Below are positions 45,195-60,876 of a DNA stretch of 64,000 nt, in pieces. Numbering within the stretch: position 1 is the first letter of the stretch; the number at the start of each line of letters is the position of its first letter. Where the stretch lies: contig NZ_CP123387.1 in NCBI RefSeq assembly GCF_040409955.1, forward strand, positions 186,001 to 250,000. Direction: 5' to 3'. The position numbers were made by a program, and so were the translations under genes. A model generated the notes under the pieces. That model had not been told where the DNA came from. It searched no databases and saw only the letters and a program-made list of their open reading frames with translations. Source of the DNA: Salipiger sp. H15 (GTDB taxonomy: Bacteria > Pseudomonadota > Alphaproteobacteria > Rhodobacterales > Rhodobacteraceae).

Positions 45195-46424
45195 TCAGCC
45201 GGCGGCCCGCGCGCCGGGGGTCCCGCGCGACCAGAGATCCGCGTCCCCGTCGGCGCCGAGGATCGTGCCGGCGGCCAGCAGGGCGGCGATCTCGCCCTCG
45301 GCATAGCCGAGGTCCGCCAGCAGCTCGGCACTGTTCTCGCCCAGCAGCGGCGGCGGATCGGCGCGGCCTTCCGAGCGGAGCAGGTGCGGCAGGGGCAGGT
45401 CCGGCGTCAGGAAGTCGAGGTCGCTGAAGCCGAATGCACTGGTTTTCCCGGGCACTTGCGCCTGCGGCGCCTCGAGCACGCGGTCGGTCGAGAGGACCTC
45501 GGTAAAGCCGACGCCCTGCCGGGCCAGCCTCTCGGCCAGCGCCTCGTAGCCGAGCGCCGCCACCGCCTCGCGCACGAGCGTCTCGACCTGCGGCCGGGCG
45601 CGGCGCCGGGCGCGCAGCGTCGCCAGCTCGGGGTCCGGCGTCAGGTCCACCGCCCGGCAGAACCGCCGCCAATGCTCGTCGGTGAGCATGACGAGGTAGA
45701 TCCAGCGCCCGTCCCGCGTTTCGTAGGCGCCGTAGCCGGGGATCGAGAACTCGGCAGAGGGCTCGGTCTCGGTGCGGCCGAGGATCTGCGAATTCAGCTG
45801 CACCGCGAGCAGGTCGCGCGCCGCGATGTGCAGCCCGGTCTCGTAGAGCCCGAGCTCGATGTTGCGCTTGTCCTCCTCGCCCGAGAGCAGCGCCGCCAGC
45901 ACCGCGATCGCCGCGTAGCAGCCGGCGAACTGGTCGTGGTAGGACGGGCCGAGCCGCGCCGGCCGGCCCTCGGGCCGGTTGGAGAACATCACCCCGGTTG
46001 CCGCCTCGGCGATCGGGTTCGAGGCGACCTCCTCGGCAAGCGGCCCCGCGCCGTAGCCCTTGATGTGGCAGAAGACGAGGCGAGGGTTGATCGCGCTGCA
46101 GGCCTCGAAACTCGCGCCAAGCTTGCGCGCCGCGGCGGGCGAGAGGTTGTGCACGAGGATGTCCGCCCGCGCGACGAGGCGGCGGAAGACCTCGCTACCT
46201 TCTGCGGATTGCAGGTCGAGGCAGAGGCTCTTCTTGCCGCGGTTGAAGGCGAGGTAGCTGCCGCTCGGGCCGCCGCGCACGAGCCGGCGCGTCGTCTCGC
46301 CGCCGGGCGGCTCGATCTTGATCACCTCCGCGCCGAGCTGCTGGAGGATATGCGTGGCGAAGGGGGCGGCGATCATGCTGCCGAGCTCGATCACCGTCCT
46401 GCCTGCGAGAACGCCGTTGGTCAT
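45195..46424 (-). CDS. Family III (CaiB/BaiF) CoA-transferase
   Basis: A 409-aa family III CoA-transferase. LAGRTVIELGSMIAAPFATH, LGAEVIKIEPPGGETTRRLV and YLAFNRGKKSLCLDLQSAEG are diagnostic. The region that normally carries the catalytic acid reads IELGLYETGLH. It is divergent from the LIV-type ABC operon. One AATGCATT palindrome lies 86 bases upstream of its start, and it converges on the ThDP enzyme with a 19-base gap. It probably adds CoA to the imported acid of the AATGCATT regulon. Confidence 0.88.
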   Translation of the reverse strand: MTNGVLAGRTVIELGSMIAAPFATHILQQLGAEVIKIEPPGGETTRRLVRGGPSGSYLAFNRGKKSLCLDLQSAEGSEVFRRLVARADILVHNLSPAAARKLGASFEACSAINPRLVFCHIKGYGAGPLAEEVASNPIAEAATGVMFSNRPEGRPARLGPSYHDQFAGCYAAIAVLAALLSGEEDKRNIELGLYETGLHIAARDLLAVQLNSQILGRTETEPSAEFSIPGYGAYETRDGRWIYLVMLTDEHWRRFCRAVDLTPDPELATLRARRRARPQVETLVREAVAALGYEALAERLARQGVGFTEVLSTDRVLEAPQAQVPGKTSAFGFSDLDFLTPDLPLPHLLRSEGRADPPPLLGENSAELLADLGYAEGEIAALLAAGTILGADGDADLWSRGTPGARAAG

Positions 46425-46509
46425 CCCGATCTCCCTTGTCGCGGCGCAGCCATGGCGCGGCTGCCTTCCCTCATGGGTGTCAGATGCGGCGACACCTTGG
46501 CAAGATAAA

Positions 46510-46517
46510 AATGCATT
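46510..46517. promoter_or_regulatory. AATGCATT operator copy 1 (CoA-transferase side)
   Basis: AATGCATT with flanking ATAAA and ATT in a G+C-rich genome. It lies in the 279-base divergent gap between the CoA-transferase (46424) and the ABC binding protein (46704). Same core as copies at 46625, 55281 and 55322. Confidence 0.65.
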
Positions 46518-46624
46518 ATTTGAAGGTGGCGTGCATCACGCCGCCCCCGGATTCGCACGAAATCGGCGGTATATAGGCGATTTTTCCTCAGAAAATCATC
46601 TCGATGACAGCGCAGGTTCACATG

Positions 46625-46634
46625 AAATGCATTT
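46625..46634. promoter_or_regulatory. AATGCATT operator copy 2 (ABC operon side)
   Basis: AAATGCATTT is a perfect 10-bp palindrome, 70 bases before the binding-protein ATG and just upstream of a possible -35 (TTGACC at 46639). It contains the shared AATGCATT core. Confidence 0.7.
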
Positions 46635-46638
46635 TATA

Positions 46639-46668
46639 TTGACCGACTCCCCTCGGTGAACCTATCGT
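46639..46668 (+). promoter_or_regulatory. Possible promoter of the LIV-type ABC operon
   Basis: TTGACC (46639-46644) with an 18-base spacer to TATCGT (46663-46668) is a plausible sigma-70 promoter 36 bases before the ATG, next to an AATGCATT operator. Confidence 0.4.
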
Positions 46669-46703
46669 CGCCGAGGGAGAGGAAACGCCCGAGGGAGGAG
46701 AAC

Positions 46704-47915
46704 ATGTTTCATGGACTGAAGGGGCCGCTCTGCGCAGCGGCGCTTGCGGCAAGCTGCGTCTCGGCGACATCGTCCGGCGCGGCGGAGCCGGGCATCGACG
46801 AGGCGAACAAGGTGGTGACCATCGGCGCCTTCACCCCGGTGACGGGGCCGGTGCCGTTCTACGCGATCCTGACGCACGCCGCCGAGGCCTATTACCGCAA
46901 TCTCAACGAGAGCGGCGGCATCGACGGCTGGACGATCAACTACGTCACCAAGGATGACGGCTACGATCCGGCGCGTTCGGTCGCGGTCACCCGGCAGATG
47001 GTCGAGGATGACGGCATCTTCGCCCTTTCCGCCTCGATCGGCACGGCGACCAACGTCGCGGTGCTGCCCTATGCGCGCGAGGTGGGCCTGCCCATGGTCG
47101 GGCCGATCGGCGGGGCCAGCGCCTTCTTCGTCGAGCGCAACGTCTTCCCGCTGCTGCCGGACTACGGCTGGTCGGCGGCGTCGAACCTCGATTACGCGGT
47201 GAACGGGCTCGGCCTGAAGAAGGTCGCGCTGCTGTGGGAGAACGACGAGCTTGGCAAGTCCGCCAAGCGCGGTTTCGAGGCCTACATGGCCGAGCTGGGG
47301 ATGGAGGCGGCGGAGTCGGTGCCCTTCGACGTGAAGACCACCAGCTTCAGCCCGCATATCCGGCGCGTCGCCAATTCCGGCGCCGAGGCGGTGATCCTCT
47401 TCGGCTCGAACGCCAACCTCGCGGCGGCGCTGAAGGCGGCGGACCTGCAGGGGGTCGACGTGACATGGTTCGCGCCCTTCTTCACCGCCGACCCCTCGAC
47501 GCAGAAGCTGGCGGGGGACCTGCTGGACGGGGTCTACTTCTCGTCCTGGCTGCTGCCGGTGTCGAGCGACGAGCCCGACATCGCCGCCTACCGCGAGTCC
47601 ATCGCCAGGTACTACCCGGACGATCCTGTCGGCGTCTTCGGCCTCAACGGCTGGAGCAACGCGGCGATCTTCCACAAGGGGTTCGAGGCGCTGCTGGACT
47701 CCGGCAAGGAGCTGACGCGCGAGAACCTCGTCGCGGCGCTCGAGACGCTCGAGGGGGCCGCGATCGGCGGCGCCCGCGGGGTGACCTTCGAGGAGGGCGA
47801 TCACCGCGGCACCCGGCAGGAAGGCATCATCCAGGCCAAGGACGGCGGCTTCGCACTGGTGCAGGATTTCCGCGCCTACCCGGCGGCCGCCTTCGAGATG
47901 GCGGCGGCGCAATGA
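46704..47915 (+). CDS. LIV-type ABC transporter periplasmic binding protein
   Basis: A 403-aa Peripla_BP_6 (LivK/AmiC-like) binding protein with a Sec signal (MFHGLKGPLCAAALAASCVS, cleavage near SGAAE). VVTIGAFTPVTGPVPFYAI starts the mature fold, and VGPIGGASAFFVERN and KKVALLWENDELGKSAKRGF are typical. The start at 46704 follows GGGAGGAGAAC. It is the first gene of an operon that continues through SDR, dehydrogenase and livHMGF-type genes. The LIV family also takes aromatic and aliphatic acids, and the context suggests a carboxylate. Confidence 0.9.
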   Translation: MFHGLKGPLCAAALAASCVSATSSGAAEPGIDEANKVVTIGAFTPVTGPVPFYAILTHAAEAYYRNLNESGGIDGWTINYVTKDDGYDPARSVAVTRQMVEDDGIFALSASIGTATNVAVLPYAREVGLPMVGPIGGASAFFVERNVFPLLPDYGWSAASNLDYAVNGLGLKKVALLWENDELGKSAKRGFEAYMAELGMEAAESVPFDVKTTSFSPHIRRVANSGAEAVILFGSNANLAAALKAADLQGVDVTWFAPFFTADPSTQKLAGDLLDGVYFSSWLLPVSSDEPDIAAYRESIARYYPDDPVGVFGLNGWSNAAIFHKGFEALLDSGKELTRENLVAALETLEGAAIGGARGVTFEEGDHRGTRQEGIIQAKDGGFALVQDFRAYPAAAFEMAAAQ

Positions 47916-47979
47916 GCCGCGCGGCGTCCGGCAGGGGCCGGGCGCCGGTTTCCAACAGGCAGAAGAACCGGAGGCAGGG

Positions 47980-48729
47980 ATGACCCTGATACCAGTCAGC
48001 GCGCCGGCGCGCATGGACGGGAAGATCGCGCTCGTGACGGGCGCGGCGGGCGGCATCGGCCGCGCAACGACGCTGGCTCTGGCCGAGGCCGGGGCCACGG
48101 TCATCGCCACTGACCTCGCCGAAAGCGCCGAGTTCGACAATCCGGCGGTCAGCTACCGCCGCTACGACGTCACCTCGCGCGACGAGACCGAGGCGCTGAT
48201 CGCGGCGGTGGTCGCCGAGCATGGCCGCATCGACGCGCTGATCCTCTGCGCCGGCACGATCTCGCACCGGCCGCTGTGGGACTCGACCGACGACGAGTGG
48301 CGCGCGATCCTCGACGTCAACCTGATGGGGGTGGTGAACCCGGTGCGCGCGGCCTTCCCGGTCATGGCCGAACAGGGCATGGGCAAGATGGTCGCCCTGG
48401 GCTCGATCGCCTCGAAGATCGGCGGCGTCGCCTCGGGCCCATCCTACGTCGCGGCGAAATCGGCGGTGCACGGCTTGATGAAATGGGTCGCCAAGGCCGG
48501 TGCGTCCAAGGGCGTCTACGCCAGCGTCATCGCCCCCGGCCCGGTCGAGACCCCGATGTGGGAGACCGTGACCCAGCGCGCCGCGCCCTCGGCCCACGGC
48601 AGCGTCCCCCTCGGCAGGTTCGGCCAGCCCGAGGACATCGCGCAGGCGATCCTGTTCCTCTGCTCGCCTGCCTCCAACTGGATCACCGGAACCGTTCTCG
48701 ACGTGAACGGCGGCATGTTGATGGATTGA
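47980..48729 (+). CDS. Short-chain dehydrogenase/reductase
   Basis: A 249-aa classical SDR. Coenzyme motif TGAAGGIG (about residue 20), LCAGTI, catalytic SIASKIGGVASGPSYVAAKS (S, Y, K), and TGTVLDVNGGMLMD at the C-terminus. It probably oxidises or reduces a hydroxyl group of the compound handled by this operon. It is 64 bases past the binding protein and 4 bases before the beta-hydroxyacid dehydrogenase gene, so co-transcribed. Confidence 0.9.
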   Translation: MTLIPVSAPARMDGKIALVTGAAGGIGRATTLALAEAGATVIATDLAESAEFDNPAVSYRRYDVTSRDETEALIAAVVAEHGRIDALILCAGTISHRPLWDSTDDEWRAILDVNLMGVVNPVRAAFPVMAEQGMGKMVALGSIASKIGGVASGPSYVAAKSAVHGLMKWVAKAGASKGVYASVIAPGPVETPMWETVTQRAAPSAHGSVPLGRFGQPEDIAQAILFLCSPASNWITGTVLDVNGGMLMD

Positions 48730-48733
48730 GATC

Positions 48734-49654
48734 ATGAGCGAGACGGACACCATCGGATTCATCGGGCTCGGCGTCATGGGCGGGCCGATGTGCTGCAACA
48801 TGGCGGCAAAGCACCCGGGCGAGGTGCTGGCCTTCGACCTCTCGGAGGCGGCACTGGCCGAGGTCGAGACCGCCGGGGCACGGCGCGTTGGCTCGGTCGA
48901 AGAGCTGGCGGCGCGGGCCGACATCATCTTCCTGTCGCTGCCCGGCGGGCCTCAGGTCGAGGCGGTGAGCGCCGCGATCGGCGCGGCAATGGGGCGCTGC
49001 GCGGTGGTGGTCGACCTGTCCACCACGCCGGTCGAGCTGGCCCGCAAGGTCGCCGCATCGCTGGCGGGGCAGGGCATCGAATTTGCCGACGCGCCCGTCG
49101 CCCGCACCCGCGAGGCCGCCCGCAAGGGCGCGCTGGCGATCATGGTGGGCGCACCCGCGCCGCTTTTCGCCCGGATCGAGCCGCTGCTGCGCTACGTCGC
49201 GACCGACATCACGCTCGGCGGCGAGGTCGGGGCGGGGCAGGTGCTCAAGCTGGTCAACAACATGCTGGTCTTTGCCAATACCGTGGCGCTGGCCGAGATG
49301 ATGGTGCTGGGCGAGCGGGCCGGGGTCGCGCCCGAGACGCTGCTCGACGCCGTGTCGAAGGGCTCGGGCGACAGTTTCGTGCTGCGCAACCATGGCCGCA
49401 AGGCGATGCTGCCGCGCGACTTCCCGGACAAGGCCTTCTCGCCGGAATATGTGCTCAAGGACATCTCCTACGTGTTCGAGCTGGCGGCGCAGACCGGCGT
49501 GCCGCTGCCCGCCGCCGAGGCCGCGCGCAGCTACTACGCCGCCGCGCCGGACCACGGGCTCTCGGGGCGCTACTTCCCCGGGGTGATCGAGCTGGTCGAG
49601 AAGGGCGTCATGAAGGACGGTGGCGGCACCCGCGACGAGGAGGCGGCGGCATGA
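48734..49654 (+). CDS. Beta-hydroxyacid dehydrogenase (3-hydroxyisobutyrate dehydrogenase family)
   Basis: A 306-aa NAD(P)-dependent enzyme. Dinucleotide motif GFIGLGVMGGPMCCNM (about residue 9), substrate motif FADAPVARTREAARKGALAI (about 116), and the catalytic lysine in LKLVNNMLVFAN (about 172). Substrates of the family include 3-hydroxyisobutyrate, tartronate semialdehyde and 2-hydroxymethylglutarate. Its stop overlaps the livH start by 4 nt. The substrate is not assignable. Confidence 0.9.
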   Translation: MSETDTIGFIGLGVMGGPMCCNMAAKHPGEVLAFDLSEAALAEVETAGARRVGSVEELAARADIIFLSLPGGPQVEAVSAAIGAAMGRCAVVVDLSTTPVELARKVAASLAGQGIEFADAPVARTREAARKGALAIMVGAPAPLFARIEPLLRYVATDITLGGEVGAGQVLKLVNNMLVFANTVALAEMMVLGERAGVAPETLLDAVSKGSGDSFVLRNHGRKAMLPRDFPDKAFSPEYVLKDISYVFELAAQTGVPLPAAEAARSYYAAAPDHGLSGRYFPGVIELVEKGVMKDGGGTRDEEAAA

Positions 49655-50541
49655 GCGATCTTCTCCGCGACCTCTTCCCGCTGGTCTGGTCGGGAATGAT
49701 CACCGGCTGCCTCTACGCGCTTGGGGCGCTGGGGCTGGTGATGATCTTCAAGTCCTCGCGGGTGGTGAACTTCTCGCATGGCAACGTGGCGGGCTTTGCC
49801 GCCTTCCTGATCTACGGCTTCTCGAGCGGCATGATCCTCGAGCTGAGCTGGGGGGCGGCGGTGCTGCTGGCGGTGCTGGCGGTGATCGCCATCGCCTTCG
49901 TGACCTATGCGGTGATCTCGCCGCTGGTCTTCGAGAGCGACCTGACCGCCACCATCGCGACGCTCGGCATCGGGCTGGTCGCGCAGGGGGCGACGCTGCT
50001 GATCTTCGGCGCCGACATCGTCAGCCTAGACCTGCCGGTTCCGCGCTTCAGCATGTCGGTGCTCGGGCTCTTCATCACCGGCTACGACCTGACCGTGCTG
50101 GCCGTGGCCGTGGTCACCATCGGCGCGCTCTTCTTCGTGATCGACCACACCAAGCTCGGCATCGCCTTCCGCGCGATCTCGGAGAACCCCTTTGCCGCCG
50201 AGGTCTGCGGGCTGAACCTGCGCTCGGTGCATCTTTTCTCCTGGATCGTCGCGGCGGTGCTGGGCGTCGTCGGGGCGCTGCTGATCGTGCCCACCACCTT
50301 CCTGAGCGTGACCACCGTGGCCGCCTTCATGCTGCAGGCCTTCGCCGCGGCGGTCATCGGCGGCTTCGGCAGCCTGCCCGGAAGCCTTCTCGGCGGGCTG
50401 CTCATCGGCATCCTGATGAACCTCTTCACCTTCTACGTCTCGCCCGAGTTCAGCAGCACCTTCCTGCTGGGCGTGATCCTGCTGGCGCTGAACATCTTCC
50501 CCAATGGCATCCTCGAGCGCGTCGGAGGGACCCGTGTCTGA
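49651..50541 (+). CDS. LIV-type ABC transporter permease (LivH)
   Basis: A 296-aa BPD_transp_2 permease with about eight hydrophobic segments. GMITGCLYALGALGLVMIFK, VNFSHGNVAGFAAFLIY and GIAFRAISENPFAAEVCGLN are LivH hallmarks. The ATG at 49651 is used, with a 4-nt overlap with the dehydrogenase gene upstream. Confidence 0.92.
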   Translation: MSDLLRDLFPLVWSGMITGCLYALGALGLVMIFKSSRVVNFSHGNVAGFAAFLIYGFSSGMILELSWGAAVLLAVLAVIAIAFVTYAVISPLVFESDLTATIATLGIGLVAQGATLLIFGADIVSLDLPVPRFSMSVLGLFITGYDLTVLAVAVVTIGALFFVIDHTKLGIAFRAISENPFAAEVCGLNLRSVHLFSWIVAAVLGVVGALLIVPTTFLSVTTVAAFMLQAFAAAVIGGFGSLPGSLLGGLLIGILMNLFTFYVSPEFSSTFLLGVILLALNIFPNGILERVGGTRV

Positions 50542-51517
50542 CCATCCCGTTCCATTCACCGCCGCCGCGCCGCGCGAGCGCCTCGCGGCACGGGTTCCGG
50601 CCGGGGCTCCGAGCCTTGTCCTCGCCGCCGCGCTGCTCCTGCTGCCGGTGATCGTCGGGGGCTCGTGGATCTTCGCGCTCGGGGTCTGCTTTGCCAATGC
50701 CATCGGCGTGCTCGCGGTGAGCCTGCTGGTGCGCTACGGCGGCGAGGTCTCGATCGGCCACGGCTTCTTCGCCGCGGTGGGAGCCTATTCCGTGGCGGTG
50801 CTCGACACGCGCTACGGCCTGTCGCTGCTCGCCAGCCTGCCGCTGGCGCTGGTCCTCGGCGTCATCTGCGGCGTGCTCTTCGCCTGGCCGTCGCGCCGGC
50901 TGTCGGGGATCTACCTGGCCGTGTCCACCATGGCGCTGGCGCTGGCCGTGCCGGAGCTGATCAACAACGCCGACGGGCTGACCGGCGGCTACGAGGGGCT
51001 CTACGTCTCGAAGCCGGTGATCCCCGGCGTGCCGATGGCGATGCAGCGCTACTACGCGGCGCTGCTGGTGCTCTTCGCGGTGGTCGGCGCGCTGGCCCGG
51101 CTGCGGCGCTCGCGGCAGGGGCTGCAGCTGCTGCTGGCCAAGGCGCATCCCGCCGCCGCCGATGCCTTCGGCACGCGCCGGGTCTGGGCGCGCATCTCGG
51201 TCATGGCGATCAGCGGCGGCATCGCGGCGCTCTGCGGGGCGATGCTGGGCTATGCCGGATCGACGGTCTCGCCGAGCGGCTTCACCCTCTGGTCGTCGAT
51301 CTTCCTGCTGGTGGGCTCGGTGGTCAGCTTCTACGGCCTGACGCTGCCGCGCGCGCTGGTCGGCGGGGCGTTCCTGACGCTGGTGCCGCAGCTGCTTTCG
51401 GCCTCGGGGGCGTGGATACCGGTGTTCTACGGGCTGGCGCTTCTCGGGATGATCCTGCTCGGCCACCACCTTCCGCGGCTGCGCGAGAAGCTCTCCACAC
51501 GCAGGGAGGAGGCATGA
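50534..51517 (+). CDS. LIV-type ABC transporter permease (LivM)
   Basis: A 327-aa LivM-like permease. The GTG start at 50534 follows GGAGGGACCC and overlaps the livH stop by 8 nt. Starting further upstream would place an untypical Ser-rich piece before the protein. YGGEVSIGHGFFAAVGAYSV and GIYLAVSTMALALAVPELIN are LivM motifs. It overlaps livG by 4 nt. Confidence 0.9.
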   Translation: MSDHPVPFTAAAPRERLAARVPAGAPSLVLAAALLLLPVIVGGSWIFALGVCFANAIGVLAVSLLVRYGGEVSIGHGFFAAVGAYSVAVLDTRYGLSLLASLPLALVLGVICGVLFAWPSRRLSGIYLAVSTMALALAVPELINNADGLTGGYEGLYVSKPVIPGVPMAMQRYYAALLVLFAVVGALARLRRSRQGLQLLLAKAHPAAADAFGTRRVWARISVMAISGGIAALCGAMLGYAGSTVSPSGFTLWSSIFLLVGSVVSFYGLTLPRALVGGAFLTLVPQLLSASGAWIPVFYGLALLGMILLGHHLPRLREKLSTRREEA

Positions 51518-52285
51518 TGGACATCGCGACCAACGCGCTGAAGGGCGAGGGCATCGCGCTCTCCTTCGGCGGGATCGAGGTGCTGCGTGGGCTCGACGTC
51601 GAGTTCCGCGCCGGCGAGATCACCGGGCTCATCGGACCGAACGGTGCGGGCAAGACCTCGCTCTTCAACTGCCTGACCGGCGCCTATGCGCCGCAGAAGG
51701 GCTCGATCCGCTACGCCGGGCAGAGCCTCGACGGGCTTTCCCCTGCGGCGCGGGCAGGCATGGGGATCGTGCGCAGCTTCCAGCACGTGGCGCTGAGCCC
51801 CGACCTCAGCGTGCTCGAGAACGTGATGATTGGCGTCGCGCGCAACCACCACGCGGGCTGGCAACACGCCTTTCTGCCGACCCGCCGCGGCCGCGCCGAG
51901 ATGGCGGCGATGCAGGCCGAGGCCGAGCGCGCGCTTTCCGAGCTTGGTCTGGCCGGGGCCGGCGGCAAGCTTCCGGCGGAACTGCCGCCGGGGATGCTGC
52001 GGCTGGTCGAGATCGCCCGCGCCATCGTCGGGCGCCCGTCGGTGCTGCTGCTCGACGAGCCCGCGGCGGGGCTCAACAACTCCGAGACCCGCGATCTGAT
52101 GCGCAGCCTGCGCAAGCTCGCCGCGCCCGATCTGGTGATGGTGGTGGTCGAGCATGACATGGATCTCGTGATGTCGATCTGCGACCGGATCTACGTGCTG
52201 AACTTCGGCAGCTTCGTCGCGTGCGGCAGTCCCGACGAGGTGCGCCGCGACGAGGAGGTGGTGCGCATCTACCTGGGGAGCGACG

Positions 52286-52293
<8 letters not shown>
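51514..52293 (+). CDS. LIV-type ABC transporter ATP-binding protein (LivG)
   Basis: A 259-aa ABC ATPase. Walker A GPNGAGKTS (about residue 42), Walker B VLLLDEPAAGLNN, switch VVVEHDMDLVMSICDRIYVL. The signature reads LPPGMLRLVEIARAI instead of the usual LSxGxQ, so the canonical LSGGQ serine motif is altered: PPGM where S-G-G-Q is expected. The NBD partner LivF keeps LSGGEQQM. The ATG at 51514 overlaps livM by 4 nt. Confidence 0.9.
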
Positions 52294-53020
<727 letters not shown>

Positions 53021-53030
53021 GGGGGCGGGC

Positions 53031-53837
53031 ATGACCGACACGACCTGGCGCATCTACGGCATCCGCCACGCGATCAACGAGGGCCGCACCCGCGGGCAGA
53101 ACTTCATCCTCGAGGGCGATCCCGGGGCGGGGCTGGTGCTTGACTTCTATTCCTGGGTGCTGGTCTCGGAGGCGCGCGCGATCGTCGTCGACACCGGCAT
53201 GGATCCGGCGAAGGCGGCCAAACACGGGCACACCCACCTCGCCAGCCCGGTCGCGGCGCTCGCCGCGCTCGGCATCGACGCCGCGCAGGCGGACACGGTG
53301 ATCCTCACCCACGCGCATTACGACCACCTCGGCTTTCTCGACGCCTTCCCGGCGGCGCGGTTCCACATGCAGGCCGAGGAGATGGCCTATGTCACCGGCC
53401 CCTGGATGCAGAAACCCTGGTTCCGCCGCGCCTACGAACCCGACGAGATCCTGCGCCTCGTGACGCTTCTGCATACGGACCGGCTGGACCTGCACGGGCG
53501 CGAGGCGGAGATCGCCGACGGGGTGAGCGTGCACTGGGTCGGCGGCCATTGCGCCGGGCAGGAGATCGTCCGGGTGCGCACCGCCCGCGGCTGGGTCGTG
53601 CTCGCCTCGGACGCGCTGCACTATTACGAGGAATACGAGCGCGGCGTGCCCTTCGCGGTGGTCTTCAATTCCTCGGACATGATCGCCGCGCATGACCGGA
53701 TCCGCGCGCTGGCGGACAGCGACGACCACGTGCTTCCGGCGCATGACCCGCGCATCGCCCGGATCTACCCGCAGGTCGGGGATTTCGCGCATCTCTTCCG
53801 GCTTGACGTGGCACCCAATTCGGGAAATGCGACATGA
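53031..53837 (+). CDS. Metallo-beta-lactamase-fold hydrolase (AHL-lactonase-like)
   Basis: A 268-aa MBL-fold hydrolase. Zn-binding H94-x-H96-x-D98-H99 (THAHYDHL), a further His in HWVGGHCAGQ, Asp in LASDALHYYEEY and a late His in LPAHDPRI complete a dinuclear site. FILEGDPGAGLVLDFYSWVL at the N-terminus resembles AhlD/AiiA-type lactonases. As the last gene of the LIV operon, it could open a lactone or hydrolyse an ester of the imported compound. A quorum-quenching role is less likely in this context. Confidence 0.82.
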   Translation: MTDTTWRIYGIRHAINEGRTRGQNFILEGDPGAGLVLDFYSWVLVSEARAIVVDTGMDPAKAAKHGHTHLASPVAALAALGIDAAQADTVILTHAHYDHLGFLDAFPAARFHMQAEEMAYVTGPWMQKPWFRRAYEPDEILRLVTLLHTDRLDLHGREAEIADGVSVHWVGGHCAGQEIVRVRTARGWVVLASDALHYYEEYERGVPFAVVFNSSDMIAAHDRIRALADSDDHVLPAHDPRIARIYPQVGDFAHLFRLDVAPNSGNAT

Positions 53838-53840
53838 AAC

Positions 53841-53850
53841 ATTGCATTAT
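53841..53850. promoter_or_regulatory. Degenerate AATGCATT copy before the GntR gene
   Basis: ATTGCATTAT differs by one base from AATGCATTAT (55281-55290). It lies 48 bases before the GntR ATG, in the 60-base gap after the MBL gene, and fits autoregulation of the GntR gene. Confidence 0.5.
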
Positions 53851-53897
53851 CCGGGGCTGCCGCTGGTATAAGGTTTCGGAGGTCGGTACGGAAGGCG

Positions 53898-54539
53898 ATG
53901 ATGTTAAAGCATCAAACCAAGGAAGAGCGGGTCGCGGACTACCTGCGCGAGGGGATCATCTCGGGGCGCTTTCCGCGTGGCTCGAAGCTGAAGCAGGCGG
54001 AGATCGCCGAGCAGATCGGCACCAGCATCACCCCCGTGCGCGAGGCGATCAAGCTGCTCGAGGCCGAGGGCTTCATCCTCGGCACGGCGAACCGCGGCGC
54101 GACGGTGGCCCCCTTCGACATCAATGCGACCGAAGAGATCGTCGACCTGCGCGTCACGCTGGAATGCAAGCTGGCGCTGCGGGCGATGGAACGGCTGACC
54201 TCCGAGCAGGTGGCCGAGCTGCGCGAGCTTCAGGCGCAGATCGAGGATGCCGCCGGGCGCGGCGACCGCGACGCGGTGCGCAGCATCAACTACCGCTTCC
54301 ACGAGGTGCTCTACCTCGCCGCCGACCTGCCGCAGACGCTGCGCTTCGTCCGCGCGCTCTGGGCCCGCTACCCGTTCGACCTGATCAACAAGCTCGACAA
54401 CCGGGTGGGCCGCGCCTCGAAGGAGCACCGCGAGATGCTGAGCGCCGTGCTTGCCCGCGACGAGGGCGCCATGCTTTCGGCGCTGCGCATGCACATCCGC
54501 GCGGGCTGGGACGAATTCAAGGAAAGCTACACCGGGTAG
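53898..54539 (+). CDS. GntR-family regulator (FCD/FadR subfamily)
   Basis: A 213-aa regulator. The GntR wHTH spans about residues 5-70: KEERVADYLREGIISGRFPR, then GTSITPVREAIKLLEAEGFI. A helical FCD domain follows, with EEIVDLRVTLECKLALRAME and NYRFHEVLYLAA (His likely binds metal in the effector site). It sits between the LIV operon and the second catabolic operon and is the obvious cognate regulator of the AATGCATT sites. FCD members usually repress and respond to a carboxylic acid. Confidence 0.9.
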   Translation: MMLKHQTKEERVADYLREGIISGRFPRGSKLKQAEIAEQIGTSITPVREAIKLLEAEGFILGTANRGATVAPFDINATEEIVDLRVTLECKLALRAMERLTSEQVAELRELQAQIEDAAGRGDRDAVRSINYRFHEVLYLAADLPQTLRFVRALWARYPFDLINKLDNRVGRASKEHREMLSAVLARDEGAMLSALRMHIRAGWDEFKESYTG

Positions 54540-54604
54540 GGCAGGACCCCCTCCTTGCGCGGTGGCCGGCACGACCATCGCAGATTACAGGCAAGGAGAC
54601 CTAA

Positions 54605-55183
54605 ATGGCCGCGGACAGCATCCTGCTCGTCATGGACATGCTCAACGATCTCGTCCACCCCGAGGGGATGGGCGCGACAACCTACGTCCCGCTCTGCCAG
54701 GAGCGCGGTGTCTACGAGAACACCGCCCTGGCGATCAGCCGTGCCCGCGAGGCTGGGCTGATGGTCGGCTACGTGCGGGTCGGCTTCTCGCCGGACTACG
54801 CCGAATGCCCGCCCGGATCGCCGGTGTTCAGCAAGGCCCGCGCCAACGGGGTCTTCACCCTCGGCAGCTGGGGCACAGAGGTCCACGAGCGCTTTGCGCC
54901 GCAGGACGGGGACCCGGACATCGTCAAGCACCGCGTCAGCCCGTTCTACGGCACCAAGCTCGAGCCGCTGCTGCGCGCGCAGGGGATCCGGCAGCTGATC
55001 CTCGCGGGGGTCTCGACCAACGGCGTCGTCTCGGCCGCGGTGCGCGAGGGTCATGACCGCGACTACGACTGCGTGGTGCTCGAGGATTGCTGCGCCGGGG
55101 CGACCCGCGAGGAGCACGACTGCGCCCTCGCCGGGCTGCGCCGCTATGCAACGATCACGACGGCGGCGGCACTGGTCCTCTGA
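54605..55183 (+). CDS. Isochorismatase-fold (cysteine hydrolase-like) protein without the catalytic Cys
   Basis: A 192-aa isochorismatase-like hydrolase fold. Asp D11 (LLVMDMLNDL) and Lys K108 (DIVKHRVSPFYGT) of the Asp-Lys-Cys triad are present, but the Cys position after LAGVSTNG is V141 (usual pattern T-x-x-C-V). C156, C162 and C163 lie elsewhere. Loss of the Cys also occurs in true isochorismatases such as EntB and PhzD, which use Asp. It follows the GntR gene by 65 bases with an AAGGAGACCTAA site. It may hydrolyse a vinyl ether, or be non-catalytic. Confidence 0.75.
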   Translation: MAADSILLVMDMLNDLVHPEGMGATTYVPLCQERGVYENTALAISRAREAGLMVGYVRVGFSPDYAECPPGSPVFSKARANGVFTLGSWGTEVHERFAPQDGDPDIVKHRVSPFYGTKLEPLLRAQGIRQLILAGVSTNGVVSAAVREGHDRDYDCVVLEDCCAGATREEHDCALAGLRRYATITTAAALVL

Positions 55184-55192
55184 CCAAGTCAG

Positions 55193-55210
55193 AATAATGC
55201 ACCAAAATGC
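55193..55210. promoter_or_regulatory. Half-site repeats related to the GntR operator
   Basis: AATAATGCACC and AAAATGCGC share the ATAATGCA/AAAATGC half of the operator, about 10 bases apart. It lies at the start of the 239-base gap before the MaoC gene, 71 bases upstream of the first full palindrome. Confidence 0.3.
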
Positions 55211-55280
55211 GCGATCTCGGGGGAAATTCCGGGATCAAGTTGCCATTTTCAACGGATTTAGGCCAGAAAGCCTCGAAGAA

Positions 55281-55290
55281 AATGCATTAT
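55281..55290. promoter_or_regulatory. AATGCATT operator copy 3
   Basis: AATGCATTAT contains the AATGCATT core and lies 25 bases upstream of a TTGACT -35-like element. It is 40 bases from copy 4, which would let two GntR dimers bind the same DNA region. Confidence 0.7.
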
Positions 55291-55305
55291 CTGGGAAATC
55301 GGTCG

Positions 55306-55334
55306 TTGACTGAAAAAAATATAATGCATTAACT
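55306..55334 (+). promoter_or_regulatory. Possible promoter of the MaoC/CoA-transferase/TRAP operon
   Basis: TTGACT (55306-55311) with a 17-base spacer to TTAACT (55329-55334). The AATGCATT copy 4 lies in the spacer, so a bound GntR repressor would block polymerase. The -10 matches TATAAT in four of six positions. Confidence 0.4.
55322..55331. promoter_or_regulatory. AATGCATT operator copy 4
   Basis: TAATGCATTA is a perfect 10-bp palindrome 91 bases before the GTG start of the MaoC gene, overlapping the probable promoter. Confidence 0.75.
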
Positions 55335-55422
55335 GAGTCCAGACGGCGCGCGGATCATCCCGCCGCCGAGGGCGCGACGGAGGGTCGTGCCGGGCACGAC
55401 AGGCACAGAGGAGAGACGCACC

Positions 55423-56643
55423 GTGACCATTGCCGAGATCACCGAGAAGTCGAAGGACAGCGTCGGCGGCGCCCCCGCCGAAGGAAAGATCACCGACGAG
55501 GCCGTCGCCGCGGCGCGCGGCATGATCGGCCTGCAGCTGCGCCCCGAGGGGCCCTATCTGCAGGACGCGACCACCGACACGCTGCGCAACTGGTGCAACG
55601 GCATCGGCGACCTGAACCCGCTCTACCGCGAGCTGGAATACGGCCGGAACTCGCGCCACGGCGGGCAGGTGGCGCACCCGATGTTCCCGATGGCCTTCGG
55701 CTGGGTCGGTCGCACCCGCTGGGGCCTGCCGGGGGTGCACGGCTTCTACGCCGGCAACGACTGGGAACTCTTCCGCCACATCCGCCCCGGCGACCGCATC
55801 AGCGCCATCGAGCGGGTGGTCGGCGTCGAGGAGAAGGAAAGCAAGTTCTCGGGCCGGCTGGTGCTGCAATATGTCGAGGCGACCTATGCCAACCAGCACG
55901 GGCAGATCGTCGCCCGCGCGCTCGGCACCTGCACCCGCCACGAGCGCAAGGCGGCGCGCGACGCCGGCAAGTACAAGGACATCAAGACCCACGAGTACAC
56001 GGCCGAGGAATACGAGGCGCTCGACGAGGCGATCCTGCGCGAGCCCGAGCGCATCCGCGGCAGCAACGTGCGCTACTGGGAGGACGTGACCGAGGGCGAG
56101 AGCCTCGAGCCGATCGTCCGCGGCCCGCTGTCGCTGATGGACACCATGGGCTTCCTCGTCGGCTGCGGCCGCGGCCATACCCACGGCGTCGTCTTCCAGG
56201 CGGCGATGAAGCACCCGGGCCACTTCTTCCGCAACCCCGAGGCCGGCGGCGGCATCGAGTATACCGGCATCGGCCACCACCGCGAGAGCACCGCGAAGGA
56301 AGTGGGCGTGCCCGGGGTCTACGACTACGGCCCGCAGCGGTCGTCCTGGATGGCCTCGCTGGTCACCAACTGGATGGGCGACGCGGCCTTCCTCAAGCGG
56401 GTCCGCACCGAGATGCGCCGCTTCAACACCATGGGCGACAGCACCTGGTGCAAGGGCAAGGTCAGCCGCAAGTACGTCAAGGACGGCCACGCGCTCGTCG
56501 ATCTCGAGATCTGGGGCGAGAACCAGCGCGGCGAGATCACCACGCCGGGCCTTGCCACGGTGATCCTGCCGAGCCGCGATCCGAACACCCGCGTCTTCTT
56601 CGACGGCTCGGCGCTCGATCTCGACCTGCCGGTGGTGCGCTGA
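55423..56643 (+). CDS. Double-hotdog MaoC-type dehydratase/hydratase
   Basis: A 406-aa protein with two hot-dog domains: an N-terminal FAS1-like dehydratase domain (AHPMFPMAFGWVGRTRWG, GNDWELFRHIRPGDRISAIE) and a C-terminal MaoC-like part starting near residue 220 (SNVRYWEDVTEGESLEPIVR). The GTG at 55423 is chosen because GGAGAGACGCACC precedes it. A GTG at 55387 has no ribosome site. Such proteins add or remove water on CoA thioesters. The usual D-x5-H hydratase dyad is not obvious, so the reaction is uncertain. It opens the operon of CoA-transferases and a lyase. Confidence 0.75.
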   Translation: MTIAEITEKSKDSVGGAPAEGKITDEAVAAARGMIGLQLRPEGPYLQDATTDTLRNWCNGIGDLNPLYRELEYGRNSRHGGQVAHPMFPMAFGWVGRTRWGLPGVHGFYAGNDWELFRHIRPGDRISAIERVVGVEEKESKFSGRLVLQYVEATYANQHGQIVARALGTCTRHERKAARDAGKYKDIKTHEYTAEEYEALDEAILREPERIRGSNVRYWEDVTEGESLEPIVRGPLSLMDTMGFLVGCGRGHTHGVVFQAAMKHPGHFFRNPEAGGGIEYTGIGHHRESTAKEVGVPGVYDYGPQRSSWMASLVTNWMGDAAFLKRVRTEMRRFNTMGDSTWCKGKVSRKYVKDGHALVDLEIWGENQRGEITTPGLATVILPSRDPNTRVFFDGSALDLDLPVVR

Positions 56644-56690: not shown

Positions 56691-57860
56691 ATGGAGCAGG
56701 ACAAGCCACTTTCAGGGGTTCGGGTCATCGAGCACGCCTCGGGCGTGGCCGGCGCCTGGGCCGGGCGCCTTCTCGCGGCGATGGGGGCGGAGGTCATCAT
56801 GGTCGAGCCCCCGACGCTCTGCCCGCTGCGCCACGAGGCGCCGCTCTTCGAGGGCGAGGGGGGCAGCGCGCTCTTCGCCTATCTCGCGGCGGGCAAGGGC
56901 AGCGTGATCTGCGATCTGGAAAAGGCCGAGGGCCAGACCGCGCTTTCGGGCCTGCTGGCCGAGGCGCAGATCCTCATCGACGACACGCCGCTGGCGCAGC
57001 GGCCCAGGCGCGCGCTCGACGAGGCCGGGCTGCGCCAGCGCCACCCGCATCTCGTGCACCTCTCGGTCCTGCCCTTCGGTGCCGCGGGGCCGAAGGCCGA
57101 CTGGAAGGGGGCCGAGATCACCCTCATCCATGCCGGCGGCGAGGGCTACCTGCTGCCGAACGGCCTGTCGGCCGACCTCTTCCCCGACCGGCCGCCGCTG
57201 AAGATCGCCGGGAACTTCGCGCAGATGCAGGGCGGCACCGCGGCGGCGCTGGCCGGGCTGGCGGCGCTCTGGTCGGGCAGCGGGCAGTTCGTCGACGTCT
57301 CGGTGCAGGACGCCAACCTCGCGGTCGGCGCCTTTGCCCTGCAGCGCTTTTGCGACGGCTCGATCGAGCACCGCCACACGCGCTCGTTCCGCTACGGCGG
57401 AGTGATCGCCTGCCGCGACGGCTACGTCGAGCTGCTGACGCTCGAAGAGCGACAATGGGCCGGGCTGGTGGAGCTGATGGGCCGCCCTCGCTGGGCCACC
57501 GACCCGGCGCTGGCGAACCCGGCGCTGCGCAGCGAGCGCGGCGACGAGATCAACCGCGAGATCCGGGTCTGGGCGCGGGACCACGCCGTCGAGGAACTGG
57601 TGGCCCGCGCGCAGAAGCTGGGCGTGCCGATGGCCCGCTACAGCGCCCCTGCCGAGATTCTCGCCGGCCGCCACGAGACCGCGCGCGGCCTTTTCCAGCC
57701 GCTCGACCTGCCGGGCGTCGGCGAGGTGCGGGTGCAGTCCGCGCCCTTCCGCTTCGCCGAGGGGCCGCTGCTGCTGGACGGCGCCGCGCCCGAACCCGGG
57801 CGCGACCAGGCGCGGCTCGATCCCGAGGCGCTGAACGACGCAAGGAGGGTCCGCGCATGA
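56691..57860 (+). CDS. Family III CoA-transferase (Mct/Frc-like, first of a pair)
   Basis: A 389-aa family III CoA-transferase. LSGVRVIEHASGVAGAWAGR is the N-terminal motif, and VDVSVQDANLAVG carries an Asp in the position of the catalytic Asp of formyl-CoA transferase. The start follows GGGAGGAGGTCCGGC. It overlaps the next CoA-transferase gene by 4 nt. Tandem family III genes often encode a heterodimer or a catalytic plus a degenerate subunit. This one keeps the Asp and is the likelier active chain. Confidence 0.85.
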   Translation: MEQDKPLSGVRVIEHASGVAGAWAGRLLAAMGAEVIMVEPPTLCPLRHEAPLFEGEGGSALFAYLAAGKGSVICDLEKAEGQTALSGLLAEAQILIDDTPLAQRPRRALDEAGLRQRHPHLVHLSVLPFGAAGPKADWKGAEITLIHAGGEGYLLPNGLSADLFPDRPPLKIAGNFAQMQGGTAAALAGLAALWSGSGQFVDVSVQDANLAVGAFALQRFCDGSIEHRHTRSFRYGGVIACRDGYVELLTLEERQWAGLVELMGRPRWATDPALANPALRSERGDEINREIRVWARDHAVEELVARAQKLGVPMARYSAPAEILAGRHETARGLFQPLDLPGVGEVRVQSAPFRFAEGPLLLDGAAPEPGRDQARLDPEALNDARRVRA

Positions 57861-59050
57861 AACCCCTCGCCGGCATCCGCATCGCCGATTTCACCGTCCA
57901 CGCCGCCGGTCCCTTCTGCACCCACATGCTGTCGCAGCTCGGCGCCGAATGCATCAAGATCGAGAGCGCCCTGCGCCCCGACATCTTCCGCAAGCCGCAC
58001 CAGGTCTACGGCCGCGCCGGGCCCGCGACCTTCGACCAGGTGGCCTCGAACAAGCTCTCCGTGCGGCTCAACCTCAAGCATCCCGAGGGCGTCGCGCTGG
58101 CGCGCAGGCTGGTTGCCGTCTCGGACGTGGCGGCAGAGAGCTTCCGCGCCGGGGTCATGGAGCGGCTCGGGCTCGGCTATGCCGCGCTTCGCGAGGTCCG
58201 GGACGACATCGTGATGACCTCGGTGTCCTCGTCCGGCCAGAGCGGGCCGGACAGCCATTTCGCCGGCTACGCGCCGCTTTTCGGCGCCTGGGGCGGGCTC
58301 GGCTACCTCAGCGGCTACGAGGACGGCCCGCCGGTCGAGATGCGCCACGTGATGGACCACTCCGTCGGCATGAACGCGGCGCTTGCCACCATGGCGGCGC
58401 TGCACCGGCGGCGGCGCACGGGGCAGGGCTGCCACGTCGACGTGGCCGCGCGCGAGGTCGCCTCGGCGCTGGCGGGCGAGGCGCTGACGGCCGCCTCGGC
58501 GGGGGTGGTGCCGCGCCGCTTGGGCAATGCCGATCCGCAGCGCGCGCCGCACGGGCTCTACCGCACCCGGCGCGAGGACCGCTGGCTGGCGATCGCCGTC
58601 TCGAGCGACCTCGAATGGGCCGCGCTCGCCCGGCTCATGGGCCGCGCCGCGCTGGCGGAGGATCCGCGCTATGCCACCGCCGCCGCGCGCGTCGCCGCCC
58701 GCGCCGAGCTCGATGCCATCGTCGCCGCCTGGGCCGAGCTGGTCGAGGCCGAGCAGGCCGCCGAGGCGCTGCAGCGCGCCGGCATCGCCGCGCATGTCTC
58801 GTGGCGCGCCAAGGATATCGCCGCCGATCCGCACATGCGGGCACGCGGCGCCGTGGTCGAGGTGACCGAAACCGACGGCCGCGCGCGCAAGGCGGTCGGC
58901 TTCCCGGCGATGTTCTCGGCCAGCGACGGGCCGGGGATCGAGCGCGGCACGCCCGCGCTCGGCGAGCACGAGGATCAGGTCTACGGCGAGATGCTGGGGC
59001 TTGGCCGCGCCGAACGGGCGCGGCTGGAGGAGGAACGGGTCATCTACTGA
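57857..59050 (+). CDS. Family III CoA-transferase (second of a pair)
   Basis: A 397-aa family III CoA-transferase. LAGIRIADFTVHAAGPFCTH, LGAECIKIESALRPDIFR and FDQVASNKLSVRLNLKHPEG are family motifs. The catalytic-acid region reads VDVAAREVASALAG, with Arg-Glu where the first copy has Gln-Asp. It may be the partner subunit of the first, or act on another acid. It overlaps its upstream gene by 4 nt and lies 19 bases before the hydratase gene. Confidence 0.85.
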   Translation: MKPLAGIRIADFTVHAAGPFCTHMLSQLGAECIKIESALRPDIFRKPHQVYGRAGPATFDQVASNKLSVRLNLKHPEGVALARRLVAVSDVAAESFRAGVMERLGLGYAALREVRDDIVMTSVSSSGQSGPDSHFAGYAPLFGAWGGLGYLSGYEDGPPVEMRHVMDHSVGMNAALATMAALHRRRRTGQGCHVDVAAREVASALAGEALTAASAGVVPRRLGNADPQRAPHGLYRTRREDRWLAIAVSSDLEWAALARLMGRAALAEDPRYATAAARVAARAELDAIVAAWAELVEAEQAAEALQRAGIAAHVSWRAKDIAADPHMRARGAVVEVTETDGRARKAVGFPAMFSASDGPGIERGTPALGEHEDQVYGEMLGLGRAERARLEEERVIY

Positions 59051-59069: not shown

Positions 59070-59936
59070 ATGACCATTCAGACCGCACTCGGGGCCGAAG
59101 ACCCCGCCCGGGCGATCGGCCGCAGCGAACGGCGCGAGGAGGTGATCGCGCCGGAGCGCGTCGCGGCGCTGGCGGCGACGCTCGATCTCGACCCGGCCCC
59201 CTCGGCAGGAGAGGCGCTGCCGCCGGGATGGCACTGGCTCTTCTTCACCCCCTTCGTCCGGCGGCGCGAGATCGGCGCGGACGGACATCCGAAGCTGGGC
59301 GGCTTCCTGCCCGACACCGGCCTGCCGCGGCGCATGTGGGCGGGCGGGCGGCTGAGCTACCACGCGCCCCTGCCGATCGGCGCCCGCGCCGAGAAGCACA
59401 GCGAGATCCTCGACGTCACCGCCAAGTCCGGCCGCGCCGGGCGGCTGGTCTTCGTCACCCTGCGGCACCGGATCTCGGCGGAGGGCCGGCTCTGCATCGA
59501 GGAGGAACAGGACCTCGTCTACCGCGAGCCGCCCGCGCCCGATGCATCGAAAGCCGCGCCGCAGCCCGCCCCCGAGGGGTCGGTCTGGTCCGAGGAGGTG
59601 CGGCCCGATCCGGTGCTGCTCTTCCGCTACTCGGCGCTCACCTCGAACGGGCACCGCATCCATTACGACCGGCCCTATGCCATGCACGAAGAGGGCTATC
59701 CCGGCCTCGTGGTGCATGGCCCTCTGATCGCGACGCTGTTGCAGAACTTCGCCGCGACGTTGCGCCCCGAGGCGCGCCTCGCGCAGTTCTCGTTCCGCGG
59801 CATGGCCCCGCTCTTCGCCGACCAGCCGTTCCGGCTCGAGGCGAAGCCGGGCGGCGATGCGGCGGTGCTCGACCTCTGGGCGCGGGGCCCGGAGGGCGGG
59901 CTCGCGATGAGCGCCAGCGCGCGGTTCGATGCATGA
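59070..59936 (+). CDS. Mesaconyl-C4-CoA hydratase-like (HTD2 family) double-hotdog protein
   Basis: A 288-aa protein with the HTD2/Meh pattern: an N-terminal half with HWLFFTPFVRRREIGADGHP, MWAGGRLSYHAPLPIGARAE and IEEEQDLVYRE, and a C-terminal hot dog with LFRYSALTSNGHRIHYDRPY then GYPGLVVHGPLIATLLQNF. Meh of Chloroflexus hydrates mesaconyl-C4-CoA to (S)-citramalyl-CoA. It sits directly before a CitE-type lyase, which could cleave citramalyl-CoA. The start at 59070 has CGAGGAGCAAGCC. Related fungal 3-hydroxyacyl dehydratases are the alternative family meaning. Confidence 0.8.
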   Translation: MTIQTALGAEDPARAIGRSERREEVIAPERVAALAATLDLDPAPSAGEALPPGWHWLFFTPFVRRREIGADGHPKLGGFLPDTGLPRRMWAGGRLSYHAPLPIGARAEKHSEILDVTAKSGRAGRLVFVTLRHRISAEGRLCIEEEQDLVYREPPAPDASKAAPQPAPEGSVWSEEVRPDPVLLFRYSALTSNGHRIHYDRPYAMHEEGYPGLVVHGPLIATLLQNFAATLRPEARLAQFSFRGMAPLFADQPFRLEAKPGGDAAVLDLWARGPEGGLAMSASARFDA

Positions 59937-59946
59937 GGGCCGCGCG

Positions 59947-60753
59947 ATGAGACAGGCCCGCAGCTACCTCTTCGTGCCGGGCGAGCGCCCGGCCCGCTTC
60001 GCCAAGGCGGCGGCCTCGGGGGCGGATGCGATCGTTCTCGATCTCGAGGACGCGGTCGGCCCCGGCAGCAAGGACGCGGCGCGGGCGCAAGTCTGCGACT
60101 GGCTCGCCGCGGGCGGGCCGGGGATCGTGCGCATCAACGGCGCGGACACGCCCTGGCTAGCGCAGGACCTCGCGGCGCTGGAGGCCTTTCCCCACGTCGC
60201 CGTCATGGTGCCCAAGGCCGAGCCGGAGGCGGTCGCGCACGTGGCCGCGCTGCTGCCGGGCCGGCCGCTGCTGGCGCTGGTCGAGACCGTGGCCGGGCTG
60301 GCGCACCTGCGCGAGACCGCCTGCCATCCGGCGGTGACGCGGCTTGCCTTTGGCAACCTCGACTTCGGCGCCGACGCGCGGATCCCCGGCGTTGCCGAGG
60401 TGCTCGACCCCGCCCGTTTCGAGATCGCGCTCGCCTCGCGGCTCGGCGGCCTGCCGCAGCCGATCGAGGGGGTGACGGTGGAGCTTTCGGACCCAGAGGC
60501 GCTGCGAGACGACATCCGGCGCGCGCGGCTGCGCGGCTTCGGCGCCAAGCTCTGCATCCACCCGTCGCAGGTCGCGCCGGTGAACGAGGGCTTTGCCCCC
60601 ACCGCGGGTGAGATCGACTGGGCGCGGCGCATCCTTGCCGCGCTGGCCGCCGCGGCGGGCTCGGTCGTGCAGGTGGATGGCAAGATGGTCGACCGCCCGC
60701 TCATCGACCGGGCACGGCAGATCCTCGGCGACGCCGAGCCCGCGCCGGCCTGA
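59947..60753 (+). CDS. CitE-family acyl-CoA lyase (citramalyl-/malyl-CoA lyase type)
   Basis: A 268-aa CitE/HpcH-fold lyase. SYLFVPGERPARFAKAAASG, IVLDLEDAVGPGSKD, IVRINGADTPW, ALVETVAGLAHLRE, FGNLDFGADARI and KLCIHPSQVAPV are in the family order. The Mg-binding Glu and Asp are in LVETVAGL and GNLDFG. The ATG at 59947 follows GAGGGCC. An ATG at 59929 overlaps the hydratase gene. It probably splits a citramalyl-CoA-like thioester to pyruvate plus acyl-CoA, which fits the hydratase gene just upstream. Confidence 0.85.
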   Translation: MRQARSYLFVPGERPARFAKAAASGADAIVLDLEDAVGPGSKDAARAQVCDWLAAGGPGIVRINGADTPWLAQDLAALEAFPHVAVMVPKAEPEAVAHVAALLPGRPLLALVETVAGLAHLRETACHPAVTRLAFGNLDFGADARIPGVAEVLDPARFEIALASRLGGLPQPIEGVTVELSDPEALRDDIRRARLRGFGAKLCIHPSQVAPVNEGFAPTAGEIDWARRILAALAAAAGSVVQVDGKMVDRPLIDRARQILGDAEPAPA

Positions 60754-60876
60754 ACGCCGCGGGACGGAAAGACCGGGGGAGGGGCCGGAGGAGGGCGCCG
60801 AACCCCGGGGCAGGGCCCGACACGAGCCTTGCCAGGACGCAAGAAACTGACCACCAATGCTTTTCGGGAGGAGACC

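Follow-up and report, generated by a model that had tools for sequence, protein, structure and literature searches.

A conserved palindrome linked to a GntR/FCD gene predicts the regulon of a mobile catabolic cluster in Salipiger sp. H15

The described systems closest to the one reported here are the itaconate clusters of Pseudomonas aeruginosa (ich-ict-ccl) and of Salmonella and Serratia (rip) and, on the regulatory side, the FadR/FCD subfamily of GntR proteins. The P. aeruginosa cluster includes PA0880, reported as a 2-hydroxyparaconate lactonase (PMC9875883), and the Salmonella and Serratia systems have a LysR regulator (PMC9637912, PMC9615192). Operators of the FadR/FCD subfamily usually carry TKGT/ACMA boxes, from which BioR and NanR deviate (PMC4494728). 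Here we describe a 64-kb stretch of Salipiger sp. H15 (the window; its 323 kb contig is one of the 7 that make up the 6.1 Mb genome), in which a gene for a GntR/FCD protein (gntR) lies in a cluster of itaconate-type enzymes and transporters and the palindromic 8-mer AATGCATT recurs in the regulatory gaps. We propose that this FCD/GntR protein, encoded at 53898-54539, is very probably a dedicated, ligand-released repressor of its own cluster, acting through the extended palindrome ATAATGCATTAT; the regulator family is known, and as a regulon prediction the case is strong.

Four copies of AATGCATT occur in the whole window, two in each of two regulatory gaps, namely the divergent gap between a class III CoA-transferase gene (CoAT_A) and a transporter operon that opens with a substrate-binding protein gene (SBP) (gap 1), and the gap ahead of an enzyme operon (gap 2). 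The mean over shuffled windows was 0.18 copies, and none of 100 shuffles gave four. An earlier sequence-only reading of this DNA had picked out these four sites and a one-mismatch copy before gntR, and had judged an AT-rich 8-mer improbable by chance in DNA so rich in G+C; the sites are confirmed, except that the two it put at 46625 and 55322 each begin one base later. The regulator gene and the predicted control elements are as follows.

53898..54539, + strand: GntR-family regulator with FCD domain, predicted repressor (PF00392, PF07729)
46510..46517: predicted operator AATGCATT on the CoAT_A side of gap 1, at 86 bp from the CoAT_A start codon (matrix 28.9 bits)
46626..46633: predicted operator AATGCATT, transporter side, 78 bp from the SBP start codon; a conserved TTGAC begins 13 bp past the site start
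46639..46644, + strand: predicted -35 element (TTGACC) of the transporter operon (TTGAC spacing across loci, consensus scan)
53841..53848: predicted weak operator ATTGCATT before gntR, a one-mismatch copy (ATTGCATTAT) (TGCA[TC] conservation)
55196..55203: degenerate copy ATAATGCACC, perhaps an additional weak operator (matrix 10.2 bits, near chance level)
55281..55288: predicted operator AATGCATT, the more upstream of the two before the enzyme operon (word occurrence)
55306..55311, + strand: predicted -35 element (TTGACT) of the enzyme operon, beginning 17 bp before the operator
55323..55330: predicted operator AATGCATT on the predicted -10 of the enzyme operon (word occurrence, TTGAC spacing)

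A matrix was trained on 96 sites at other loci, with the window excluded and copies limited to the interval from -9.5 kb to +2 kb relative to gntR. It ranks 46510, 55323, 55281, 46626 and 53841 as the five top places of the window (28.9, 25.2, 23.8, 23.2 and 14.7 bits), with 55196 sixth. The best place in each of 20 simulated windows averaged 8.0 bits and reached 17.1 at most, so that the copy at 53841, which follows the end of the upstream gene (53837) and precedes the GntR start, is not significant by itself.

Conservation of the motif was followed in a contig scan with one genome per species, which yielded 33 loci, 28 of them with GntR orthologues (54-91% identity) and five remote. The latter (L033-L037, 25-33% identity) hold 0-1 copies of AATGCATT each and were excluded from orthologue counts; the core set consists of 27 orthologous loci whose regulators are at least 72% identical to that of the window, and counts of 28 add the window itself. 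Conservation in orthologous promoters, a check that the sequence-only reading had proposed, is complete, since at least two copies are present in all 27 loci. Gap 1 holds at least one copy in 26/26 loci that reach it and gap 2 in 28/28 (window counted). The 27 loci together carry 98 copies. Of these, 96 lie in the interval from -9.5 kb to +2 kb around gntR: 85 in the two gaps, three ahead of gntR, seven ahead of a class I succinate CoA-transferase gene, plus a single copy at -527 in L029; the last two precede the class I succinate CoA-transferase gene of L010, on the other side of the cluster. Five of the 27 loci have this gene, some to one side of the cluster and some to the other, and all five show AATGCATT upstream of it. 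The stretches concerned are:

L010:19990-20632: class I succinate CoA-transferase
L011, L012, L014, L016, near 1000-1210: class I succinate CoA-transferase
L049:1512-3053: class I succinate CoA-transferase

Conservation extends past the 8-mer, with A at -2 in 87% and T at -1 in 66% (counts averaged over both strands), giving ATAATGCATTAT as the conserved site around the core AATGCATT. These figures bear on an alternative to an operator role, namely that the word simply reflects promoter composition or a site of methylation or restriction (ATGCAT). The word does sit in AT-rich promoter DNA of GC-rich genomes; however, among 64 palindromes of the same composition that were compared across the 27 loci, the runner-up has 12 copies and the median is 1, so that the 63 others are not enriched, and with conserved flanks and a gene-specific placement besides, we find this explanation hardly credible.

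Over the genome as a whole AATGCATT is not enriched, since its 11 copies compare with 10 for the reversed control word, and the genome-wide count was accordingly rejected as proof of enrichment in favour of clustering and subtraction of rRNA copies. Four of the 11 genomic copies fall inside 8.8 kb (probability about 4e-6). Five of the seven others (L038, L039, L040, L043 and L044) map to the 3′ region of 23S rRNA genes. A genome count had also been proposed by the sequence-only reading, and it finds the word rare outside rRNA genes, with two isolated copies (L041, L042) beyond the cluster; the frames beside these two show no visible relation to the cluster pathway, although no family search of them was made. 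On a practical level, the 23S rRNA copies are a trap for motif counting.

The copies also stand in fixed relation to predicted promoters. Scans for promoter consensus sequences told little (2, 0 and 0 sites), and a comparison of TTGAC spacing across loci took their place; the claim of the sequence-only reading that the copies overlap or adjoin probable promoters draws little support from the scans themselves and is supported by a conserved TTGAC at fixed distance. In gap 2, TTGAC begins 16-18 bp before the last copy in 25/28 loci, so that this copy covers the enzyme operon's predicted -10. The composite TTGAC-N10-13-AATGCA occurs in gap 2 of 26/28 loci and only twice more across the 27 loci, both times in gap 1. 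L029 keeps the enzyme-promoter arrangement at a further copy ending GCAC, and in L018 and L030 TTGAC stands ahead of a weaker copy at wider spacing. On the transporter strand of gap 1, TTGAC begins 13-14 bp past the copy start in 12/26 loci, and a TTGAC facing the CoA-transferase side is present in 8/26. TGCA[TC] is found at -70 to -44 of gntR in 25/28 loci, as compared with 0.039 per stretch expected by chance.

The motif tracks the GntR gene at 53898 and not the GntR family at large. AATGCATT lies within 1.5 kb of 32/35 GntR orthologues and of none of 25 paralogues with given loci (31-38% identity); matches to the GntR protein are present in 152 of 394 genomes of the family. The exceptions at 1.5 kb are L068 and two Cupriavidus loci, in which the copies are ∼2.9 kb away. 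Rearranged clusters with GntR proteins 53-57% identical (L047, L050 and L100 of Cupriavidus, L032 and L094) keep the motif, which in L047 occupies the gap that separates the CoA-transferase gene from SBP and in L094 (53% identity) lies between the divergent gntR and SBP genes, while L100 has a further copy before the gene for the hydratase MaoC1. A blind search of the 394 family genomes for paired copies of AATGCATT with 95-125 bases between them matched 11 genomes, three of them (G000, G167 and G203) beside gntR clusters (P 6e-5), although a GntR orthologue of at least 78% identity is present in only 4/394; as two of these genomes, G167 and G203, already supplied L031 and L022, this search tests specificity and adds no new data. 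Clusters lacking gntR were sought in the genomes of the class, where SBP was found in 2/385 and MaoC1 in 3/385, and only one emerged, L101, a single case with relatives of MaoC1 and of a second hydratase, MaoC2, with no gntR match and no copy of AATGCATT in 19 kb. In a plasmid collection, all eight records with MaoC1 at E 1e-100 or better also hold gntR. MaoC1 alone is nonetheless not diagnostic of the regulon because its protein relatives are very many (1951 significant among 8000 candidates scored).

Several observations weigh against the proposed repressor and its operator. The orthologues are related, and close duplicates are present (L012/L049, L025/L046, L047/L050), so that locus counts are not independent. 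The motif fades at 43-44% GntR identity, where L048 has one copy 1.2 kb away and no copy was found in 18 kb around L068 (44% identity; stretch L095). The MaoC1 gene of G497 has no copy in the 473 contig bases before it, DNA that looks coding by eye. TTGAC is missing from both fixed places of gap 1 in 6/26 loci, and TGCA[TC] is missing before gntR in 3/28. Where copies are paired, their helical phasing is only weak (R 0.61, n 10; R 0.46, n 23) and was not used as support. The conserved site ATAATGCATTAT, whose operator role we infer, has none of the TKGT/ACMA (GT/AC) boxes usual for the subfamily (PMC4494728). Lastly, the transporter site ends 5-6 bp ahead of the predicted -35 in 12/26 loci, a position upstream of the promoter that is compatible with activation. 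The GntR protein might then bind the motif as a ligand-dependent activator, or activate one unit and repress the others. We consider this unlikely, since the enzyme-operon site covers the predicted -10 in the great majority of loci (25/28), a site lies within the short region before gntR, and most characterised FCD/GntR relatives are repressors.

Equally on the opposing side, 8 of the 11 blind pair matches have no gntR alongside, and binding of AATGCATT by the GntR protein is itself a prediction. Together with the isolated copies at L041 and L042, this would suit an operator of a different, genome-wide regulator to which gntR is a mere neighbour. Against it, those two are the only non-rRNA copies outside the cluster, and their neighbouring frames lack a visible pathway relation (no family search having been made); the motif, moreover, follows gntR through rearrangements, is absent near all 25 paralogues and is absent from the only enzyme relative found without gntR (L101). 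We regard this rival as very improbable.

The 213-residue protein encoded by gntR has the expected architecture of a GntR/FCD repressor, with an N-terminal winged helix (PF00392, 53.9 bits against a cut-off of 27) and a C-terminal FCD domain (PF07729, 74.9 bits against 24.3) that is helical in a structure model. Residues N131, H135, H177 and H199, which we take to be the metal ligands of a metal-type FCD domain, are invariant in 29/29 GntR sequences, as is S43-I44-T45-P46. The common GntR motif is SRTPVRE, and Ile44 stands here where FadR/FCD relatives with that motif have Arg. The operators differ likewise: the FadR/FCD subfamily, to which VanR/Atu1419, McbR, PmiR, DhdR and TM0439 belong, is associated with TKGT/ACMA boxes (PMC4494728), in contrast to the predicted operator AATGCATT here, which would add a site departing from the consensus of the largest GntR subfamily. 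A full-text literature search, which covers few subscription papers, returned nothing joining AATGCATT with GntR, or GntR with ATGCAT and “binding site”; for ATAATGCATTAT it returned only works unrelated by title. No GntR regulator of itaconate genes was found in the titles, abstract starts and passages that deal with GntR and itaconate. Within that coverage, the predicted control circuit is undescribed.

The motif, its conservation, its promoter geometry and its linkage to gntR are properties of the sequences compared, and from them we infer GntR binding, repression, a ligand and a substrate along the following lines. A GntR dimer would bind the palindrome ATAATGCATTAT (core AATGCATT), at the enzyme operon on the proximal operator over the predicted -10, at the transporter operon on an operator just ahead of the -35, and more weakly at a site within the gntR promoter region. 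Occupancy would block RNA polymerase and hold expression at a low, autoregulated level. A carboxylate of the pathway may bind the FCD domain at the predicted metal site (N131, H135, H177, H199) and release the repressor, whereupon four units would be derepressed together: CoAT_A; the ABC (ATP-binding cassette) importer with SDR, HIBADH-type and lactonase genes; gntR with the amidase gene; and the MaoC/CoA-transferase/lyase/TRAP operon. The sequence-only reading was probably right about the regulator; its regulon had three units, all retained here, and the count is probably four, as the gntR-amidase pair has its own conserved weak site. It had also named GntR as the only regulator, and no other was seen among the cluster genes scanned. 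A thiamine pyrophosphate (TPP)-enzyme gene upstream (43553-45175) is associated with the cluster in 0/27 loci and probably lies outside the regulon. The proposal yields a testable regulon, with regulator, operator, promoter geometry and targets, for an uncharacterised mobile catabolic cluster, whose genes other than gntR are listed below.

45195..46424, - strand: class III CoA-transferase (CoAT_A), unit 1 (PF02515, 280 bits)
46704..47915, + strand: branched-chain-amino-acid-type ABC substrate-binding protein (SBP) (PF13458, 206 bits)
47980..48729, + strand: SDR oxidoreductase (PF13561)
48734..49654, + strand: beta-hydroxyacid dehydrogenase, HIBADH type (PF03446/PF14833)
49620..50541, + strand: ABC permease, start not fixed (PF02653 in frame)
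50504..51517, + strand: ABC permease (PF02653)
51514..52293, + strand: ABC ATPase, LivG-like (family search)
52286..53020, + strand: ABC ATPase, LivF/UrtE-like (family search)
53031..53837, + strand: metallo-beta-lactamase-fold (MBL) lactonase-like hydrolase, intact HAHYDH (PF00753)
54605..55183, + strand: isochorismatase-family cysteine hydrolase, amidase-like (PF00857; nearest solved structures biuret hydrolase and RutB)
55423..56643, + strand: MaoC/FAS1-dehydratase-type hydratase (MaoC1), GTG start (PF13452)
56691..57860, + strand: class III CoA-transferase subunit without catalytic-type Asp (CoAT_B) (PF02515)
57857..59050, + strand: class III CoA-transferase subunit with Asp (CoAT_C) (PF02515)
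59070..59936, + strand: itaconyl-CoA hydratase-like MaoC protein (MaoC2) (8khg)
59929..60753, + strand: CoA-ester lyase, CitE/RipC type (NF038242; 9nzb/8khl, E ∼1e-51)
60829..61836, + strand: TRAP-TAXI solute-binding protein (TIGR02122 above cut-off)
61850..63709, + strand: TRAP fused permease (TIGR02123 above cut-off)

The cluster probably breaks down itaconate-like acids, to judge by its enzyme families. Like the ich-ict-ccl and rip clusters, it combines an itaconyl-CoA-hydratase-like MaoC protein, class III CoA-transferases and a CitE/RipC-type lyase. MaoC2 matches the itaconyl-CoA hydratase 8khg at E 7e-76 over 273/311 residues of the searched frame, and the best NCBIfam model of the lyase is RipC_Ccl (NF038242; 147 bits, under its cut-off of 375). 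The predicted route would run from CoA transfer through hydration to cleavage by a citramalyl-CoA-lyase-like enzyme. It departs from the known itaconate clusters in having two CoA-transferase subunits that resemble a heterodimer, an additional MaoC protein that is very conserved, the ABC importer, and SDR, HIBADH-type and amidase genes. This additional protein, MaoC1, exceeds all the other enzymes in conservation (83-94% identity across the 27 loci), yet no solved structure is related to it in sequence at E 0.001. Three class III CoA-transferases are encoded in all (CoAT_A, CoAT_B and CoAT_C). An orthologue of CoAT_A is present in 25/27 loci, the other two (L024, L028) ending early on that side; its sequence keeps HDQFAG, the Asp of which is presumably of the catalytic type. 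CoAT_B and CoAT_C resemble benzylsuccinate CoA-transferase heterodimers in being two adjacent class III subunits, one of them lacking the catalytic-type Asp, at what we take to be the catalytic position. The nearest solved relative of CoAT_C is the benzylsuccinate CoA-transferase subunit 9fn0 (E 1e-52); the similarity is, however, moderate (182.7 bits), and unlike in the benzylsuccinate systems no toluene or benzylsuccinate pathway gene appears among the families of the cluster. The TRAP solute-binding protein and permease are found together in 6/27 loci.

Control differs from that of the Salmonella and Serratia itaconate systems, which have a LysR regulator (PMC9637912, PMC9615192). The cluster genes scanned include no LysR-type regulator, GntR being the sole regulator, and none other lies inside the cluster in annotated relatives.

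As in P. aeruginosa, where PA0880 is the counterpart (PMC9875883), the cluster includes a lactonase-type gene. The top NCBIfam matches of its MBL hydrolase are N-acyl-homoserine lactone lactonases, all under cut-off. Three diverged clusters have no MBL relative and instead carry a gene of the SMP-30/gluconolactonase family (L032:16547-17500, L094:9175-10092, L047:832-1755); L050 also lacks the MBL gene, no gluconolactonase search having been made there. This swap of lactonase families suggests that a lactone is opened, and the compound entering the route may be a lactone or a hydroxylated derivative, for instance 2-hydroxyparaconate or itatartarate. An itatartarate-like acid with a primary alcohol would, as a guess, suit the HIBADH-type enzyme. 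The substrate pointer is to a lactone or substituted itaconate, and an FCD sensor of such acids would serve as a biosensor and could tie marine and soil bacteria to fungal itaconate chemistry.

Copies of the cluster lie on plasmids (L046, L047, L049 and L051), among them one of 56.5 kb in Salipiger abyssi and a conjugative one in Agrobacterium pusense, and the regulator is present in four of the 20 same-genus genomes listed, that of the window counted. Tentatively, and with less confidence than we place in the repressor itself, the cluster may be a plasmid-borne catabolic island whose substrate is an itaconate-family acid in its lactone form (fungal 2-hydroxyparaconate, for instance, by way of itatartarate). 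Its FCD/GntR repressor would then have lost a usual Arg contact and would read an operator devoid of GT/AC boxes, and the motif would have captured new genes (class I succinate CoA-transferase) into the regulon in some lineages. In L094 (248-1423; G497) a gene for a succinyl-CoA-ligase-like CoA ligase of the ATP-grasp type stands behind the gntR-amidase pair, perhaps as another means of CoA supply.

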